From: Rhodothermus bifroesti
Lineage (GTDB): Bacteria; Bacteroidota; Rhodothermia; Rhodothermales; Rhodothermaceae
Assembly (NCBI RefSeq): GCF_017908595.1
Contig: NZ_JAGKTL010000004.1
Location: forward strand, 62,001-126,000
Length of the DNA: 64,000 bases
Direction: 5' to 3'
The translations under genes and the position numbers were made by a program. Numbering within the stretch: the first letter of the stretch is position 1; each line of letters starts with the position of its first letter. Below, one piece after another: positions 21,084 to 29,052 of this stretch. The notes beneath the pieces are model-generated. The model had not been told where the DNA came from. It did no database searches and saw only the letters and a program-made list of their open reading frames with translations.

Positions 21084-21202
21084 GGTTTTACCTCAAGCTC
21101 GTTGAACAGATAACCCTAAAAGTATATGGATGAAACGCCTAATCGATCCCCTTATGGGAACTTACATTGGGTTTAGGCAATTGTGTGCCCGTTACTTTTT
21201 AG

Positions 21203-21226
21203 GACAAATGTATCCCTAAGCCTAAA
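21203..21226. promoter_or_regulatory. Conserved block upstream of the first Rrf2 gene (candidate operator, copy 1)
   Basis: The sequence GACAAA-N2-TATCC-N-TAA-N-CCTAA ends directly at the ATG at 21227. A near-identical block sits before the second Rrf2 gene at 21867-21889. The overlapping element TTAGG-N11-CCTAA (21199-21219) is an inverted repeat. Position and duplication suggest an operator for autoregulation by Rrf2 proteins. Confidence 0.5.
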
Positions 21227-21664
21227 ATGTCTACCATGTTTTCCCGAGCTTGCGAATACGGTTTACGGGCTGTCTTATATCTAGCAACGCTGAACCATAA
21301 CGGGTACATTTCCATTCGTGAAATTGGGGAACAGCTTCAAATCTCAGTGCCCTTCCTAACCAAAATCTTCCAAAAGCTTACGCAGGCCGGCCTGATGCAG
21401 TCGCTGCGCGGCCCTAGTGGAGGCGTCATGTTTGCCCGCTCGCCCGAAGAGATTACGCTGTTTGACGTCATTGTGGCTATCGACGGCCCGGCCCTGTTTA
21501 CCGAGTGCGTGCTCGGCCTACCAGGATGTGGCGAAGCCGTTCCTTGTCCTCTGCACGAACGCTGGAAAGATGTGCGCAACCCGATCCGCAACCTGTTTGC
21601 CACTACCACGCTAGCCGATATGGCCCGCCGCATTCGCGAGGCCAACTTGCGCCTTATACCTTAA
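21227..21664 (+). CDS. Rrf2-family regulator with C-x6-C-x5-C cluster motif (first copy)
   Basis: A winged-helix Rrf2 protein: recognition part IREIGEQLQISVPFLTKIFQKL and wing LRGPSGGVMFARSPEEI. Cys94, Cys101 and Cys107 (CVLGLPGCGEAVPC) form the three-cysteine loop that holds a [2Fe-2S] or [4Fe-4S] cluster in IscR, NsrR and RsrR. A start at the ATG at 21236 (MFSRACEYGL) aligns better with family members than 21227. Family knowledge makes it a sensor of nitric oxide, redox state or iron. Its place before the nos cluster suggests it controls nitrous oxide reduction, possibly together with its paralogue at 21890. Confidence 0.9.
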   Translation: MSTMFSRACEYGLRAVLYLATLNHNGYISIREIGEQLQISVPFLTKIFQKLTQAGLMQSLRGPSGGVMFARSPEEITLFDVIVAIDGPALFTECVLGLPGCGEAVPCPLHERWKDVRNPIRNLFATTTLADMARRIREANLRLIP

Positions 21665-21759
21665 GCTCCATGCACTTCCTGCTAAAAAGCCGCAAAAGCT
21701 CGGTGAATCTCACTTTTTAAGACTTTTAACTCCTATTTTCCTTTTATCAACGCTAGTAC

Positions 21760-21786
21760 GCTGCCTGTAGGGGTTTACCTGGCAGC
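21760..21786. repeat. Short inverted repeat in the gap between the two Rrf2 genes
   Basis: Arms GCTGCC (21760-21765) and GGCAGC (21781-21786), with a further possible AGG/CCT pair inside. It is the only structure I see in the 225-bp, relatively AT-rich gap 21665-21889, apart from the conserved block just before the second Rrf2 gene. No U-run follows. The gap otherwise probably holds the promoter of the nos transcript. Confidence 0.35.
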
Positions 21787-21866
21787 ACATGTAGCAGTTT
21801 GCCGACAACGCATGGCTAACAAGCCCTGACAACAAAAAAGCCGCGCAGTACAAATTTTATGTCAAA

Positions 21867-21889
21867 GACAAAATTATCCTTAAACCTAA
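21867..21889. promoter_or_regulatory. Conserved block upstream of the second Rrf2 gene (candidate operator, copy 2)
   Basis: The same block as at 21203-21226, differing at four positions and one base shorter, again ending exactly before the start codon. The two coding regions themselves have diverged strongly, so conservation of this noncoding block is best explained by a shared binding site. The upstream AATTTTATG sequence is AT-rich and may hold the promoter. Confidence 0.5.
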
Positions 21890-22330
21890 ATGATCAGTCA
21901 GAGTGGTCGACAGGCGCTAGCAGCAATGCAACTGCTGGCGCAGCACAATGGGCGGCGTTTTCTAACCGTTCGCCAGGTCAGTCAACGTATTGGGGCTTCT
22001 CCCCATACCCTAGCGCGCATCGTGCTACGCCTAACAGCTGCTGGGCTGACCGATACGCTACGCGGCCCAGGTGGAGGTGTTCGCCTGGCCAAAGCTGCTC
22101 AGCAAATCACCCTGCTCGAGGTGGTAGAGGCTGTCGATGGGCCTCGCGTGTTCGAGCGTTGCCTGGTGGGCTTTGGACCTTGCAACGAAGCCCACCCCTG
22201 CCCGCTGCATCTGCTTTGGTTTCCATGCCGCCAGCAACTTCGGCAACTGCTGGCCGAAATGACCCTGGAAGATTTGCTCCATCCTCACGCTTCCCGTAAA
22301 CCTTCCACAACAAGTCCTTCAGAGAAATGA
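21890..22330 (+). CDS. Rrf2-family regulator with C-x6-C-x5-C cluster motif (second copy)
   Basis: A second Rrf2 protein of 146 residues with helix-turn-helix VRQVSQRIGASPHTLARIVL, wing LRGPGGGVRLAKAAQQI and the cluster loop CLVGFGPCNEAHPC (Cys91, Cys98, Cys104), with the same spacing as the upstream paralogue. The N-terminal region is less conserved than in the first copy. Its stop codon overlaps the start of the cytochrome c gene (ATGA), so it is translationally coupled to the nos operon. It is therefore a strong candidate for the dedicated nos regulator, sensing nitric oxide or redox state through the cluster. Confidence 0.88.
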   Translation: MISQSGRQALAAMQLLAQHNGRRFLTVRQVSQRIGASPHTLARIVLRLTAAGLTDTLRGPGGGVRLAKAAQQITLLEVVEAVDGPRVFERCLVGFGPCNEAHPCPLHLLWFPCRQQLRQLLAEMTLEDLLHPHASRKPSTTSPSEK

Positions 22331-22791
22331 AAACGTTGGTTTGGTCTCTTGCAGCTTGTATGATGAGCCTGACGTTGACGGCCTGTGGCCCTCAGCAAAC
22401 AAATTCCTCCAACCCTTCGGCAGCCGCATCGACGGCACAAGACCCTGAAGCACTGGCTGCCGAAATCGGTCCAGTTAAGCAGCTAACCCTAGCTGAGCAG
22501 CTTGATGCAGCGCTAGCGCAGCAAGGCGAGCAGCTCTTTAACACCTACTGCATCGCCTGCCATCGACTCGAGGAGCGCTTCATCGGTCCGCCGCTGGGCA
22601 ACGTTACCCAGCGACGCGGTCCGGTGTACCTCATGAACATGATGCTCAACCCCAATGGGATGATCCAGCGCCATCCCGTGGTCAAACAGCTCGTATCGGA
22701 GTACGGCACGCTCATGACGGATCTTAGCCTGACCGAAGAGCAAGCCCGTGCCATTCTCGAATACCTGCGCCAGGTTGGCGCAACCTCTTGA
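22327..22791 (+). CDS. Lipoprotein c-type cytochrome of the nos operon
   Basis: The signal peptide ends in lipobox LTAC (Cys20), so the protein should be membrane-anchored on the periplasmic side. One heme c site, CIACH (Cys75, Cys78, His79), is followed by the IGPPLGNVTQR segment, and a distal Met is available in GTLMTDLSL. At 154 residues with one heme it is a small class I cytochrome. Clade II nos clusters often carry small cytochromes (NosC) thought to pass electrons to NosZ. Being the first structural gene before nosZ supports that role. Confidence 0.87.
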   Translation: MKTLVWSLAACMMSLTLTACGPQQTNSSNPSAAASTAQDPEALAAEIGPVKQLTLAEQLDAALAQQGEQLFNTYCIACHRLEERFIGPPLGNVTQRRGPVYLMNMMLNPNGMIQRHPVVKQLVSEYGTLMTDLSLTEEQARAILEYLRQVGATS

Positions 22792-22830: not shown

Positions 22831-24813
22831 ATGAAACGCAATGTGCTCTGGCTAGCTAGCATAGCCGCTGCGGCTGTGCTCTTGGTTGGATGTCGCGGCG
22901 GTGCGCAGCGCGGCGGTGAGCTAATCAGCGATGACCCCATGGAGATCGCTCGGGCACGCGGCCTTAGCCCGGCCGACGTCGTCGCGGCAGTCAAAACGTA
23001 TCAGCCCACAGGTAAGCATGACGAGTATCTCCTGTTCGCCTCGGGGGGACACTCAGGACAGGTGCTGGTCATTGGGGTTCCCTCGATGCGCCTGCTTAAG
23101 GTTATCGGCGTCTTTACACCAGAACCCTGGCAGGGCTGGGGTTTCTCTAAAGAAACCCGTGAAGTCCTCCGGCAAGGCGCCTTTGAGGGTAAAGAGCTTA
23201 CCTGGGGCGACGTGCACCACCCCGCGCTTTCTGAAACCAACGGCGATTATGACGGCCAATTCCTATTTGTCAACGACAAGGCAAATTCCCGCATCGCCGT
23301 GATCGATCTGCGTGACTTTGAGACCAAGCAGATCGTCAAAAACCCACTTTCGTTAAGTGACCACGGCGGTGCTTTTGTAACCCCAAATACCGAGTGGGTC
23401 ATCGAAGGCGGGCAGTATGCAGCACCGTTCGAGGGATATGCCCCGATTGAACAGTATCAGGGACAATATCGAGGGCTGGTCACCTTCTGGAAGTTTGATC
23501 GGCAACGGGGACGCATCCTGCCCGAACAGTCTTTTGCGCTGGAACTACCCCCCTATTGGCAGGACTTGTGCGATGCTGGTAAAGGCGTAAGTGAGGGCTG
23601 GGTATTTTGCAATTCTTTGAATACCGAAATGGCTACAGGTGGCGTCGAGAAGGGCAATCCGCCTTTTGAAGCTGGTGTCTCGCAGCGCGACATGGACTAC
23701 CTGCATGTTATCAACCTGCGTAAGGCAGCTGAGCTGGTAGCAGCAGGACGCACGCGCACAATCAAAGGCTTCAAAGTTCTACCGATCGAAACCGCCGTTG
23801 CCGAGGGCGTGCTTTACTTTATCCCTGAACCCAAGAGCCCACATGGCATCGACGTCTCTCCGGATGGGAACTACTTGGTTGTCTCCGGAAAGCTTGACCC
23901 CCATGCCACCGTCTTCAGCTTTGAGAAAATCCAAAATGCTATTGCCAGCCAGCGCTTTTCAGGCCGGGATGACTATAGCGTGCCGATTTTGGACTTTGAC
24001 GCCGTCGTAGAAAGCCAAATTGAGCTTGGGCTGGGTCCGCTGCACACCCAGTTTGATCCTAACGGATACGCCTACACCAGCCTCTTTTTGGAAAGCGCTG
24101 TCGTGCGCTGGACGCTGGGTGGACCCTGGACCGAAAAGCATGGCCGAGATCCCTGGAGCGTAGTGGACAAAATCTCGGTCCACTATAACATCGGCCACTT
24201 GGTGGCTGCAGAAGGCGATAACGTCAACCCTGACGGCCGCTATCTGGTGGCCATGAACAAGTGGTCGGTGGACCGCTTTAGCAACGTTGGACCGCTCCTG
24301 CCCCAAAACTTCCAGCTGATCGACATCAGTAATCCCCAGGGGCCAATGCAGCTCCTCTACGATATGCCTATTGGCATCGGAGAGCCACACTATGCTCAGA
24401 TCATCAAGGCCGACAAAATCCAGGCATGGGAGGTTTATCCTGAGGTCGGTTGGGAGCCGACAACACAAGCTGCCCATCCCCATGCGGTCAAACCAGGTCA
24501 AGAGCGCATTGAGCGCCGAGGCAATACGGTAGAAATCTGGATGACGGCCACCCGTAGCCATTTTACCCCAGAGCATGTGGAAGTGCGTAAAGGCGACCGC
24601 GTGATCTGGCACATCACAAGCATTGAGCGCGCGCGGGATGCCACGCACGGCTTTGCGCTGCCCGGCTACAATGTCAATTTGAGCCTAGAGCCGGGCGAAA
24701 CGCAAACGATTGAATTTGTAGCTGACCGCGACGGCGTGTTTACCTTCTACTGCACCGAATTTTGCTCGGCACTCCACTTGGAAATGGTCGGCTACTTCTT
24801 GGTGCGTCCGTAA
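22831..24813 (+). CDS. nosZ: Nitrous oxide reductase, clade II, lipoprotein type
   Basis: NosZ reduces N2O to N2 using copper centres CuZ and CuA. The N-terminus is a Sec-type lipoprotein signal (lipobox LVGC, Cys21) with no twin-arginine motif, which is typical of clade II. The N-terminal seven-bladed propeller shows CuZ histidine motifs such as DVHHP (His129, His130), SDHGG (His178) and PHGIDVSPDG. The C-terminal cupredoxin domain has the full CuA set: His606, Cys641, Cys645, His649 and Met652 in CTEFCSALHLEM. A strong ribosome site AGGAGGT lies before the ATG, rare in this window. A perfect hairpin follows the gene. Confidence 0.97.
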   Translation: MKRNVLWLASIAAAAVLLVGCRGGAQRGGELISDDPMEIARARGLSPADVVAAVKTYQPTGKHDEYLLFASGGHSGQVLVIGVPSMRLLKVIGVFTPEPWQGWGFSKETREVLRQGAFEGKELTWGDVHHPALSETNGDYDGQFLFVNDKANSRIAVIDLRDFETKQIVKNPLSLSDHGGAFVTPNTEWVIEGGQYAAPFEGYAPIEQYQGQYRGLVTFWKFDRQRGRILPEQSFALELPPYWQDLCDAGKGVSEGWVFCNSLNTEMATGGVEKGNPPFEAGVSQRDMDYLHVINLRKAAELVAAGRTRTIKGFKVLPIETAVAEGVLYFIPEPKSPHGIDVSPDGNYLVVSGKLDPHATVFSFEKIQNAIASQRFSGRDDYSVPILDFDAVVESQIELGLGPLHTQFDPNGYAYTSLFLESAVVRWTLGGPWTEKHGRDPWSVVDKISVHYNIGHLVAAEGDNVNPDGRYLVAMNKWSVDRFSNVGPLLPQNFQLIDISNPQGPMQLLYDMPIGIGEPHYAQIIKADKIQAWEVYPEVGWEPTTQAAHPHAVKPGQERIERRGNTVEIWMTATRSHFTPEHVEVRKGDRVIWHITSIERARDATHGFALPGYNVNLSLEPGETQTIEFVADRDGVFTFYCTEFCSALHLEMVGYFLVRP

Positions 24814-24876: not shown

Positions 24877-25539
24877 ATGACGTGGCTGTCTAAAATCATC
24901 GGACCGCGCATCCCAGATTCGGTCCTGCAGCGTGAGCGGCGTCATTTCCGACGGCCGACACTGCTGCTCAGCGCAGCGGCCCTGCTGCTACTCATCTCGA
25001 TCTTTTTCCCTTACTGGCGCATCCGGCTTTATGCACCCCAATACCCCGGCGGCCTGGTGGCTAAGGTATACGTGAACCGTGTCGAGGGCGACGTGCGCGA
25101 AATCGACGGCCTAAACCATTATATCGGCATGCGGCCGCTTGAAGAAGCGGCCCAGCTTGAACGCTCCTTAAGCATTTTTCTGATTGCAGCCATGGCACTT
25201 TTGGTAGGCGGAGCGATTTACATTCATTCCCCGTGGGCGGCTGTACTGAGCCTACCTGCTTTACTTTACCCACTGGTCTTTTTGGCCGACCTGTACTATT
25301 GGCTTTGGAGCTTCGGGACCAACCTGGATCCTAAGGCCCCCTTAAGCAGCTCCGTCAAACCGTTTGTTCCTCCTCTGCTGGGCGAAGGACAGGTAGGGCA
25401 GTTTCGCGTCGTCGCTTTCTGGGACATAGGGCTTTGGATGGCCATTGCGGCCTCCATTTTGATCGCTCTTGGCCTGTATTACCACCGCAAGGCTTACAAG
25501 CCGTTTTACGATGCCTATGTGGCTCAGGCGAGCACATAA
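24877..25539 (+). CDS. NosB-like integral membrane protein of clade II nos clusters
   Basis: A 220-residue protein with about four membrane helices (residues 28-46, 97-115, 118-142, 184-203). Between helices 1 and 2 lies a periplasmic segment with PQYPGGLVAKVYVNRVEGDV and the motif DGLNHYIGMRPLEE. A membrane gene at this place, between nosZ and nosD, is characteristic of clade II clusters, where it is called nosB in Wolinella-type systems; its biochemical function is not known. The assignment rests mainly on position and the LNHYIGM segment. The end overlaps the nosD start by 23 bp. Confidence 0.65.
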   Translation: MTWLSKIIGPRIPDSVLQRERRHFRRPTLLLSAAALLLLISIFFPYWRIRLYAPQYPGGLVAKVYVNRVEGDVREIDGLNHYIGMRPLEEAAQLERSLSIFLIAAMALLVGGAIYIHSPWAAVLSLPALLYPLVFLADLYYWLWSFGTNLDPKAPLSSSVKPFVPPLLGEGQVGQFRVVAFWDIGLWMAIAASILIALGLYYHRKAYKPFYDAYVAQAST

Positions 25540-26881
25540 AACGTGGGGCCTGCTTGTGGTCGTGCTGCTTGCGCTGCCTCTCAAGGCGCAGCCGGTTGCC
25601 TCATTGCAGGACCTGCTCAACCAAGCCCAAGCAGGGGATACGCTGCGCATCAAAAGCGGCCTCTACGCCGGTCCGGTGCGTATTACCAAACCTATGGTTT
25701 TGCTAGGTGAGCAAACGCCCATAATCGACGGTCAAGGGCGCGGCACTGTGGTTACCATCGAAGCACCCGATGTCGTCCTGCAGGGCTTTGTCATTCGCAA
25801 CTCAGGCCGCGTGCTCGACCAAGACGATGCCGGCATTCTTGTTAGCGCCCCCCGCGTGACCATAGCCGACAACCGAATTGAGCATGTACTGTTTGGGATC
25901 TACCTGCGCCAGGCCGACTCCTGCCGCATCGAACGCAACACAATTACCGGAGACCCTAGCCTCGAAACAGCGCGCCGGGGCGATCTTATCCGTCTCTGGT
26001 ACAGCCATAATGTCCACATCTTGAACAACAGGATTCAACACGGACGCGATGTGGTCATCTGGTTTTCTAAAGGTGTTGTGCTGAAAGGGAACACAGTCAC
26101 CCTGAGTCGCTACGGCCAACATTTCATGTACAGCGATAGCGCCCTCATCGAGCAAAACCGCATGTTGCACAATTCAGTGGGCGCCTACCTGATGTACAGT
26201 CGGCACCTTGTGTTTCGAAAAAACCTGTTGGCCTATAACCGGCATGCCTCAGGGATTGGCATTGGCCTGAAAGACATGGACCACGTCGTGCTCGAAAGCA
26301 ACGCGGTCATCGACAACCAGGTGGGCATTTTTGTGGACTCCAGCCCACGGGCTCTGGATGCTCAAATCCACTACAACCAAAACGTACTGGCCTATAACGA
26401 CGTTGGCTTGCAAACTTTAGGTCCAGCACCCCGGAGTCTATTTGAAAACAATAGTTTTATCGAAAACTACGAACAGATAGATATCCTGGGGGGCGGCCAG
26501 TTCACGGAAAGCATTGGAAGCTTTTGGCGACAGAATTACTGGAGCGATTATCGTGGCTATGATGCAGACCGTGATGGGTTGGGCGAAGTGCCTTATCAGG
26601 CCGTAGCTTTGTTCGACGCGCTCACGGACCAAACGCCGGCCTTGCGCTGGTTTGCGTTTAGTCCCGTCGTCCAAGCGCTGGAACTGGCCGCGCGCGCCTT
26701 CCCCGTGATGCGCCCTGTCCCCAAGCTTACCGACCCACAGCCGCGGCTGCGGCCGATACTTCCAGAGGGCCTGCCCGCAGCCAAGCAGCAGCCTAGCACG
26801 GCACTGGCGCTAGCTGGCTTGGGTTTGCTGCTACTAAGCATCCTAGTGATGGGCAAAGCCCGCTTGCAACCTTTAAGATGA
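25517..26881 (+). CDS. nosD: NosD, periplasmic copper-site maturation protein
   Basis: NosD works with the NosFY transporter to assemble the CuZ centre of NosZ. A signal peptide (MWLRRAHKTWGLLVVVLLAL, cleavage near AQ) is followed by a right-handed beta-helix of CASH/NosD repeats, as in VTIADNRIEHVLFGIYLRQA, VHILNNRIQH and VVLESNAVIDNQVGIFVD. The C-terminus has an extra membrane helix (LALAGLGLLLLSILVMG) with a short basic tail, so the protein may stay anchored. Starts at 25511 and 25517 are both possible; both overlap the upstream gene. Confidence 0.92.
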   Translation: MWLRRAHKTWGLLVVVLLALPLKAQPVASLQDLLNQAQAGDTLRIKSGLYAGPVRITKPMVLLGEQTPIIDGQGRGTVVTIEAPDVVLQGFVIRNSGRVLDQDDAGILVSAPRVTIADNRIEHVLFGIYLRQADSCRIERNTITGDPSLETARRGDLIRLWYSHNVHILNNRIQHGRDVVIWFSKGVVLKGNTVTLSRYGQHFMYSDSALIEQNRMLHNSVGAYLMYSRHLVFRKNLLAYNRHASGIGIGLKDMDHVVLESNAVIDNQVGIFVDSSPRALDAQIHYNQNVLAYNDVGLQTLGPAPRSLFENNSFIENYEQIDILGGGQFTESIGSFWRQNYWSDYRGYDADRDGLGEVPYQAVALFDALTDQTPALRWFAFSPVVQALELAARAFPVMRPVPKLTDPQPRLRPILPEGLPAAKQQPSTALALAGLGLLLLSILVMGKARLQPLR

Positions 26882-26888
26882 ACGTGAT

Positions 26889-27758
26889 ATGGCGCTACTG
26901 CAGATTGAGCGTCTTACGAAGCGTTTTGGCGCCGCCAAAGTACTTCAGGAATTGTCGGTCACTGTCGAGACTGGCGAGCAACTGGCCTTATGGGGGCCTA
27001 ACGGTGCTGGTAAGACCACACTACTTCGGTGCATCCTAGGCCTGCTCCCTTTTGAAGGCACAATTCGCCTAAATGGCTACGACGTCCGGCGACAAGGGAA
27101 AGCCGCGCGCCGGCTTATTGGCTTTGTACCCCAGGAGGTGGCGTTTTACCCAACGCTAACTGTGGGCGAAACCGCAGCTTTTTTTGCACGCTTGCGCGGC
27201 TTGGATCTCCAAGCAACCCGCCCACTTCTAGAACAAGTGGGCTTAGCAGACCGCATGCACCAGCCAACGCGCACGCTCTCCGGGGGACAACGGCAACGAC
27301 TAGCCTTGGCGCTGGCCCTACTTGGCGACCCCCCTTTGTTGCTGCTCGATGAGCCTACAGCCAGCCTAGACGTGCGCAGCCGCAGCGAGTTTCTTACTTA
27401 TTTAGAAGCCTTAAAACAGCAAGGCAAAACGCTGATTTTTGCCACGCACCGCTTTGAAGAAGTTGAGCAGCTGGCCGGACGCGTCTTGTTCCTTGAAAAC
27501 GGTCGTTTAAAAGCCGATACAAGCCCGACTTTGCTCAAAAAACACCTGTTTCACGTTGTTCCGCACGTGCGCCTGCGGTTGCATCTTCCTGAAACCCAAC
27601 ACGCCGACGCATTGCAGACGTTGCGCACGCAAGGATTTGAAGCCCGCACGAATGGCCACGGTCTGGAGGTGCGGGTTCCTTTTGACCAAAAAGCTTCTCC
27701 CTTACTTCTGCTTAGCCAAGCTGGCTTTGAAATCACGGACTTTGAGCTTCATGCCTAA
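26889..27758 (+). CDS. nosF: NosF, ABC transporter ATP-binding protein
   Basis: Cytoplasmic ATPase of the NosDFY complex needed for CuZ maturation. Motifs: Walker A GPNGAGKTTL (from residue 36), Q-loop VPQE, ABC signature LSGGQRQRL, Walker B LLLLDEPTASLD and switch His in FATHRFEE. A C-terminal extension of about 85 residues after the ABC domain is usual for NosF. It lies 7 bp after nosD and 8 bp before nosY. Confidence 0.93.
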   Translation: MALLQIERLTKRFGAAKVLQELSVTVETGEQLALWGPNGAGKTTLLRCILGLLPFEGTIRLNGYDVRRQGKAARRLIGFVPQEVAFYPTLTVGETAAFFARLRGLDLQATRPLLEQVGLADRMHQPTRTLSGGQRQRLALALALLGDPPLLLLDEPTASLDVRSRSEFLTYLEALKQQGKTLIFATHRFEEVEQLAGRVLFLENGRLKADTSPTLLKKHLFHVVPHVRLRLHLPETQHADALQTLRTQGFEARTNGHGLEVRVPFDQKASPLLLLSQAGFEITDFELHA

Positions 27759-27766
27759 CCACAGCC

Positions 27767-28615
27767 ATGATCTTGCTGCATAACGTTACGCCGAAAGTTT
27801 TTGGGTTGTTAGCCCGTAAAGAGCTGCACGACGCACTGCGCAACCGGTGGTTTGTGCTCTATACGCTGGTTTTTTCTCTGCTAGCGCTGGTGCTTTCTTG
27901 GATGGGCCTGGCCAGCGGACAGCTCTACGGACTAGCCGGTTTTGGACGCACAACCGCAAGTCTCATCAACTTGGTTATGCTCATTGTGCCCCTAATGGGA
28001 CTAACGCTGGGCGCGCTAAGCTTAGCTCTCGAGCGCGAGCAAGGCACCCTGCTCTATGTACTGGCCCAACCGATCACGCCCGCCGAGGTCCTACTGGGCA
28101 AACTGCTCGGGCTGGCGACAGCCCTTACGGCTACGCTGAGCATTGGTTTTGGCCTGAGCGGACTGGTGCTTGCTTGGCGAGGCAGCACCATAGGGCTAGG
28201 AGCCTTCCTGGGGTTGCTGGGATTAGCGATCTTGCTAGCACTTTTCAGCCTGAGCTTGGGATTATTGTTTTCGAGTGCTCTCCCCCGCACTGCCGCAGCC
28301 CTTGGCAGCGCGCTGTTTGCCTGGCTACTGCTGGTTTTCTTGGGAGATCTGGGTCTGCTAGGCTCGGCCTTGGTCCTGCGCATGCCTATTGAAGCGCTTT
28401 TTACACTTTCGCTGTTAAATCCGCTTCAGGTGTTTAAGCTTGCGGCCATTTTGCTCCTGCAAAGCGACCTTCAGGTGCTAGGTCCAGCTGGACAGTATGC
28501 CATGCATATCTACGGCCTGCGCCTACTCCCCCTTTCGATTGGACTGTTGGGTCTATGGACCTTGGTGCCTTTATTGCCCGCTCACCTATTTTTCCATCGC
28601 CGCGGTGCGCTATGA
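27767..28615 (+). CDS. nosY: NosY, ABC transporter permease
   Basis: Membrane partner of NosF, ABC-2 type, about six helices: FVLYTLVFSLLALVLSWMG, LINLVMLIVPLMGLTLGALS, ALTATLSIGFGLSGLVLA, GLAILLALFSLSLGLLF, ALFAWLLLVFLGDLG and a final helix near residue 260. The motif LEREQGTLLYVLAQPITPAE after helix 2 is typical of NosY. Its stop codon overlaps the nosL start (ATGA), showing translational coupling. Confidence 0.92.
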   Translation: MILLHNVTPKVFGLLARKELHDALRNRWFVLYTLVFSLLALVLSWMGLASGQLYGLAGFGRTTASLINLVMLIVPLMGLTLGALSLALEREQGTLLYVLAQPITPAEVLLGKLLGLATALTATLSIGFGLSGLVLAWRGSTIGLGAFLGLLGLAILLALFSLSLGLLFSSALPRTAAALGSALFAWLLLVFLGDLGLLGSALVLRMPIEALFTLSLLNPLQVFKLAAILLLQSDLQVLGPAGQYAMHIYGLRLLPLSIGLLGLWTLVPLLPAHLFFHRRGAL

Positions 28616-29052
28616 AACGTTGGTTTGTGCTTCTGTTGCTGTTTGGCAGCTGCCAAAGCGGGGCAGATTTGGACCAGCCACCCACGTTTCGCTTTGGCTA
28701 TGACAGCTGCGACTATTGCCGCATGCTGATTACCGAGCCGCGCTACGCAGCTGCCCTACGCCTGATCGATGGCCAGGCTCGGCGCTTTGACGACATCGGC
28801 TGCCTTTTGCACTACTTGCAAGCACACCCTAGCGAACCCCAGGCACACATTTGGGTGAACGATTACTTGCAGGAACGCTGGCTGCGCGCCGAAGTGGCGC
28901 TGTACGTACAAAGCGACCGGCTAACTACACCCATGGGCTATGGCATCGTGGCCTTAGCCGATTCGATAGCTGCCGAAAGCCTAGCCCAACAGCTCCATGC
29001 TCCTGTGCTGCGTTTTGAGCAGCTTCGGGCTGGATTCCTCCCCCACCCGTAG
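28612..29052 (+). CDS. nosL: NosL, copper chaperone lipoprotein
   Basis: NosL delivers Cu(I) to NosZ through the NosDFY complex. The 146-residue protein has a lipoprotein signal (lipobox FGSC, Cys14) and the Cu(I)-binding motif CDYCRM (Cys33, Cys36, Met38), followed by the conserved RFDDIGCLLHYL and PMGYGIVA segments. It is the last gene of the nos operon; the convergent CBS-domain gene ends only 1 bp further on. Confidence 0.94.
   Translation: MKRWFVLLLLFGSCQSGADLDQPPTFRFGYDSCDYCRMLITEPRYAAALRLIDGQARRFDDIGCLLHYLQAHPSEPQAHIWVNDYLQERWLRAEVALYVQSDRLTTPMGYGIVALADSIAAESLAQQLHAPVLRFEQLRAGFLPHP

Follow-up and report, generated by a model that had tools for sequence, protein, structure and literature searches.

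A diverged pair of Rrf2 regulators and a predicted palindromic operator at the clade II nos operon of Rhodothermus bifroesti

How is nitrous-oxide respiration controlled in bacteria with a clade II nos operon, and what do the two Rrf2 genes standing before such an operon in Rhodothermus bifroesti contribute? Organisms with clade II nosZ are a major biological N2O sink, and we know of no account of how nos is controlled in most of them. Members of the Rrf2 family usually sense nitric oxide (NO) or redox state. An Rrf2 gene beside clade II nos has been described from metagenomes of Ushuaia Bay and from related genomes, where its role was considered hard to predict (PMC6264515), and from Melioribacter roseus (PMC3534657). 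These uncharacterised regulators resemble ours in that the same gene adjoins the same operon; neither account gives an operator, a regulon, a signal or a second paralogue, and our search of the openly accessible (non-subscription) literature found no report of the operator, regulon or Rrf2 pair presented below. We describe here the genes and sites found in 64,000 nt of contig NZ_JAGKTL010000004.1 (the window; Table 1) and their counterparts in related genomes.

Table 1. Genes and predicted operators at the nos locus, in window coordinates
Feature	Coordinates	Strand	Description
Predicted operator O1	21196..21221	+	Core GGA-N8-TCC, upstream of gene 1; includes most of the block at 21203-21225
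Rrf2 gene 1	21236..21664	+	142 aa, MFSRACEYGLRA..., orthologue of the class-wide nos-linked Rrf2
Predicted operator O2	21714..21739	+	TTTTTAAGACTTTTAACTCCTATTTT, between the rrf2 genes; not in the first-pass annotation
Predicted operator O3	21860..21885	+	Abuts the gene 2 start codon; includes most of the block at 21867-21889
Rrf2 gene 2	21890..22330	+	146 aa, diverged paralogue; ATGA overlap with the next gene
c-type cytochrome lipoprotein	22327..22791	+	First structural gene of the nos operon
nosZ	22831..24813	+	Sec-type (clade II) nitrous-oxide reductase; TIGR04246, 871.5 bits (cut-off 625)
nosD, then ABC ATPase and permease genes (nosF/nosY-like), nosL	25469..29052	+	Maturation genes 3' of nosZ

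The combination of a TIGR04246 NosZ with nosD and nosL places the operon among the clade II (Sec-type) nos clusters; nosD and nosL were assigned by profile, nosF and nosY by position and translated sequence. The first-pass annotation had described gene 2 as translationally coupled to this operon, and indeed gene 2 and the cytochrome c gene share an ATGA at 22327-22330, an overlap also present in the relatives that we read. The start of gene 1 is most likely the codon at 21236 (MFSRACEY), because the alternative ATG at 21227 is missing from six sister genomes; O1 would therefore end ∼17 nt before the start. Both products score well above the thresholds of the Rrf2 superfamily (PF02082, 118.1 bits for gene 1 and 108.2 for gene 2, cut-off 30; TIGR00738, 114.2 and 96.8 bits, cut-off 73.3). 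They are the only two Rrf2 genes of the genome, and the six sister genomes likewise hold only this Rrf2 pair above the family cut-off.

Reading the two translations confirmed that both proteins carry C-x6-C-x5-C (-x2-H), as C91-VLGLPG-C98-GEAVP-C104-PL-H107 in gene 1 and C91-LVGFGP-C98-NEAHP-C104-PL-H107 in gene 2, with a first gap one residue longer than that of Escherichia coli IscR (C92-x5-C98-x5-C104-x2-H107). The suggestion that this spacing is a special feature had to be given up: it is the rule in the subfamily (87 of 98 aligned homologues), and C91, C98 and C104 occur in nearly all relatives of both proteins. In some nos-linked Rrf2 proteins of relatives the C-x6-C-x5-C pattern was not found and the operator described below is retained; these are possible cluster-free derivatives.

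The two proteins share 40% identity and have evolved at different rates. Gene 1, whose closest named loci are from Rhodothermus metagenome-assembled genomes (MAGs; 89-91% protein identity), evolves slowly (dN/dS 0.03-0.04) and is nested in the tree among the nos regulators of the class; gene 2 is a genus-wide paralogue on a long branch without a firm place, faster-evolving yet under purifying selection (dN/dS 0.13-0.19). Near its N-terminus, gene 1 has Cys6 and Glu7-x3-Arg11, with Glu7 replaced by Val, Ile, Gln or His in most of the class. Cys6, Glu7 and Arg11 are all missing from gene 2, which retains C91, C98, C104 and H107. The two genes are thus not the equal partners they had been taken for. 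On conservation and phylogeny, gene 1 is the predicted class-wide nos regulator and gene 2 a faster-evolving extra paralogue. A few other genera likewise have Rrf2 pairs at nos; at five loci outside Rhodothermus a second Rrf2 gene lies near nos or elsewhere, mostly with the same operator. Their branches are long, and they apparently arose by separate duplications.

The 23-nt block that the first-pass annotation had noticed before both Rrf2 genes is present as exact matches at 21203-21225 and 21867-21889, against 0.00 matches expected in the window (100 shuffles). Scanning the 2.88-Mb genome for further copies gave no third at fewer than three mismatches, and the two matches with three mismatches equal the control level. 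Absence of the block from relatives would have spoken against the earlier reading; instead, both copies are kept in all seven Rhodothermus genomes. Outside the genus, matches to the literal pattern at up to three mismatches fell to control level, and a palindromic matrix was required. Elsewhere in the class, the upstream regions of ∼60 Rrf2 genes linked to nos in other genera proved to share a palindrome of which the block is an off-centre reading (TTAGGACAAATGTATCCCTAA and CAAAGACAAAATTATCCTTAA). The palindrome has a near-invariant GA-N8-TC core and a consensus of about TTAAGA-N8-TCTTAA (matrix consensus near TTAAGAYAAANNNRTCTTAA); its Rhodothermus form is TTAGGA-N8-TCCYTAA.

We built the operator matrix from 54 sites at nos-linked Rrf2 genes of other genera, none of them from Rhodothermus. 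Applied to the window, the 26-bp matrix gave 22.0 bits for O2, 17.7 for O3 and 16.5 for O1, compared with 9.9 for the fourth-best site and 6.9 for the best site of the reversed control. With both the 20- and the 26-bp matrix, the three are the top three of 63,981 positions and stand well clear of the next one, and with a 16-bp core matrix they all fall within the top four. All three sites are present in the seven Rhodothermus genomes.

Could the blocks simply be common promoter or leader elements unconnected to Rrf2? They do lie directly upstream of genes, O3 right at a start codon, but no other gene in the window has a site of comparable score, the block has two exact copies genome-wide, the arms of the palindrome change together and the site is much commoner where Rrf2 is present, so that we regard this explanation as very improbable. 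A role as promoter element only was ruled out by the palindromy and the co-occurrence with Rrf2. As a coding or leader-peptide feature the block also failed: at gene 1 it can be read through in frame downstream of a TAG, yet the ATG preceding it lacks conservation, and the reading frames differ between genes 1 and 2. A search for sigma-70 promoters at O1-O3 in Rhodothermus gave none that was convincing. Between O2 and O3, five loci of sister species have a hairpin (GTGTARGG-N5-CCYTACAC) with one covarying pair, and the window has a different short stem in its place (GCTGCC...GGCAGC, 21765-21790). Fold z-scores of this region were about -1.6 to -2.7 in four relatives and 0.4 in the window; the hairpin may belong to the 5' UTR of the transcript that carries gene 2 and nos.

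Across the class, a second site follows within 400 nt of the rrf2 stop codon, before the nos genes, at 46 of 60 loci (1.3% in shuffled sequence), and the loci of the other genera usually hold one Rrf2 gene each. By this comparison, one site before rrf2 and one after it is the usual class-wide layout, which O1 and O2 fit; O2 would occupy the ancestral position of the second operator, and gene 2 with O3 would be an addition between O2 and the cytochrome gene. At 18 loci a TTGACA-like -35 box precedes the site by a constant 27-28 nt, with the operator starting in the -10 element and covering the start site. Because the operator abuts the -10 at these loci, the geometry suggests that of a repressor.

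Presence of the site also follows the gene. A site of at least 17 bits was found at 31 of 39 nos loci with Rrf2 versus 6 of 18 without, and at none of the reversed controls. That six loci without an adjacent Rrf2 gene nonetheless carry a site means that an Rrf2 protein encoded elsewhere, or another factor, could act there. Together with the pair being the only members of their family in the genome, this co-occurrence supports Rrf2 as the probable regulator of the operator. Five nos loci from two genera combine strong operator sites with no adjacent Rrf2 gene; their regulator may be encoded elsewhere in those genomes.

It might be gene 2, not gene 1, that regulates O2 and O3, through separate sites or as heterodimers, with the similar blocks being relics of a tandem duplication. 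The recognition helices differ (PHTLARIVLRLT in gene 2 vs VPFLTKIFQKLT in gene 1), and O3 has its own conserved variant, GAYAAATGAATCC, in six species. However, O3 retains the GA-N8-TC core, O2 also stands at this position in genera with the gene 1 type only, and no further strong site found among the scored candidates of the genome demands a second specificity; we consider a leading role of gene 2 improbable.

Evidence on the signal comes from the other candidate targets. The search before nor genes that had been suggested revealed a conserved site of 18.8 bits (ATTAGTACTAATTAATCCTAAT, contig 1 position 652322), equal in score to the window operators, before an eNOR-like NO-reductase operon (contig 1, 647000-654000). 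It lies ∼50 nt before a short gene that is followed by genes for a COX2-like subunit and a heme-copper subunit I, and it is kept in four sister genomes. In this B-family subunit I, HGSQQ aligns to HPIVY of the ba3 enzyme, so that Gln replaces the active-site Tyr, which is the defining trait of eNOR; an eNOR of Rhodothermus profundi is listed in the same study (PMC8756737). The substitution and the cupredoxin (COX2-like) subunit gene upstream both fit eNOR. The operon suggests that the organism reduces NO and N2O; nirS, like the porin described next, is absent from the R. bifroesti genome.

In six sister Rhodothermus species, the promoter of a porin gene (PF13372, alginate-export family) contains the operator, and its arms change together (TTTAGGAT...ATCCTAA vs TTTAAGAC...GTCTTAA). 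In other genera RIC/YtfE is preceded by the motif in four genomes (two confirmed by profile), and so are a NirK-like gene, a copper-receptor-like gene of the TonB type and additional Rrf2 genes; some matches in other genomes precede genes without a known NO link. The RIC gene of R. bifroesti (contig 3) has no operator near its start. The matrix search scored part of its candidates, 150 of 391 in the R. bifroesti genome, so the list of targets is incomplete. Two sets of sites were left aside. The nirS promoters of five sister species show the site in half-conserved form only (PWM 4.6-8.4), possibly as a variant with GA-N10-TC spacing, which we considered weak and did not count, and in sister genomes the sites beside an oxidase operon that contains COX2 were weak too.

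As it stands, this regulon supports a self-regulating Rrf2 repressor that would respond to NO or denitrification. The same circuit could instead read general redox state, O2 or Fe-S supply in the manner of IscR or RsrR; the genome having no other Rrf2 gene, the pair would then double as sensors of Fe-S status. C91, C98, C104 and H107 correspond to the IscR ligand set, IscR is the equivalog with the best scores, although these fall far short of its cut-off, and IscR and CymR, with NsrR behind them, are among the nearest solved structures. Yet the sites precede nos, eNOR-like, RIC, NirK-like and copper-receptor genes, whereas the suf genes at ∼31.3-36.2 kb of the window are without a high-scoring site, the best matches in the window being O1-O3 only. 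On balance, a general redox signal appears unlikely.

We therefore favour, at a probability of roughly 60%, a model in which gene 1 encodes an Fe-S Rrf2 repressor of its own gene, the nos operon and the eNOR-like operon that is released by NO or a redox signal, with gene 2 fine-tuning the response. The gene 1 protein would be a homodimeric Rrf2-family repressor with a cross-subunit iron-sulfur site at C91/C98/C104 (plus H107 and/or Glu7). Its holo form would bind the TTAAGA-N8-TCTTAA palindromes (TTAGGA-N8-TCCYTAA in Rhodothermus) where they overlap promoters. Bound to O1 it would repress gene 1 itself, and bound to O2 and O3 the gene 2-cytochrome c-nosZDFYL operon; its targets would also include one or more further NO-related operons, among them that of the eNOR-like NO reductase. 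The cluster would be damaged by NO or by a linked redox or Fe-S state, and the protein would leave the DNA, turning on NO and N2O reduction together in the way of NsrR elsewhere. Gene 2, duplicated, diverged and now apparently the first gene of the nos operon, would most likely provide a second, differently responding repressor that fine-tunes the same sites. We propose a cluster-dependent gene 1 repressor and a differently responding gene 2 because Glu7-x3-Arg11 and H107 are present in gene 1, and Cys6, Glu7 and Arg11 are missing from gene 2. Of the earlier picture of a cross-regulating pair that senses NO or redox state for N2O respiration, we retain the operator-like sites before both genes, the association with clade II nos and, as likely, an NO or denitrification signal, and we do not retain the equal partnership; cross-regulation by gene 2 would be compatible with the sites.

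More tentatively, and with the odds somewhat against it, the TTAAGA-N8-TCTTAA sites may mark an undescribed Rrf2 regulon through which the Rhodothermota, and perhaps the Bacteroidota, natively control N2O and NO reduction in response to NO. In Rhodothermus, two proteins would share this control over a region with three operators, one having kept the NsrR-like N-terminal residues and one having lost them, forming a two-threshold switch for N2O respiration. A defined candidate operator, regulator and regulon make nos control in clade II organisms testable in a tractable thermophile (a genetic system is reported for Rhodothermus marinus), and the operator motif can help to annotate the regulation of nos in genomic and metagenomic sequence. 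With the paired paralogues, nature also provides a case in which to follow the divergence of Rrf2 sensing once a gene has duplicated.

Among characterised members of the family, RsrR, CymR and RirA share the family and the general fold with our pair and differ in cysteine pattern and targets; CymR is not known to carry a cluster. IscR is similar in its C-C-C-H ligand positions (92/98/104/107 vs 91/98/104/107 here) and in its HTH and wing (LRGPSGGV), but its first cysteine gap is x5 rather than x6. The pair scores 81.5 (gene 1) and 72.4 bits (gene 2) against the IscR equivalog, below the cut-off of 207.55, and no linkage of the operator to isc or suf was found within the window. NsrR of E. coli and Streptomyces coelicolor has the same Rrf2 fold and three cysteines, and a YGLRA helix as here; gene 1 has Glu7-x3-Arg11 where E. 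coli NsrR has Asp8-x3-Arg12, and Asp8 is the fourth cluster ligand of S. coelicolor NsrR (PMC5411485). The pattern of autoregulation is also similar, as are the targets, which in relatives include RIC/YtfE and genes for nitrite and NO reductases. RIC (dnrN) belongs to the classical targets of NsrR (PMC1274295), and the sites before the eNOR-like operon here and before RIC and NirK-like genes in relatives agree with the dnrN/RIC, nor and nir members of an NsrR regulon of NO and nitrite genes, which also has hmp and hcp. The two systems differ in that the NsrR operator is gATGyAT-N5-ATrCATc (PMC1274295) rather than TTAAGA-N8-TCTTAA or GGA-N8-TCC, in the additional conserved His107 and in the predicted main target, clade II nos, and the pair reaches only 56.7 (gene 1) and 41.8 bits (gene 2) against the NsrR equivalog NF008240 (cut-off 182). 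Because both proteins fall below the NsrR and IscR equivalog cut-offs and the operator is unlike the NsrR consensus, we file the pair as a putative Rrf2 regulator that works like NsrR and is not NsrR itself.
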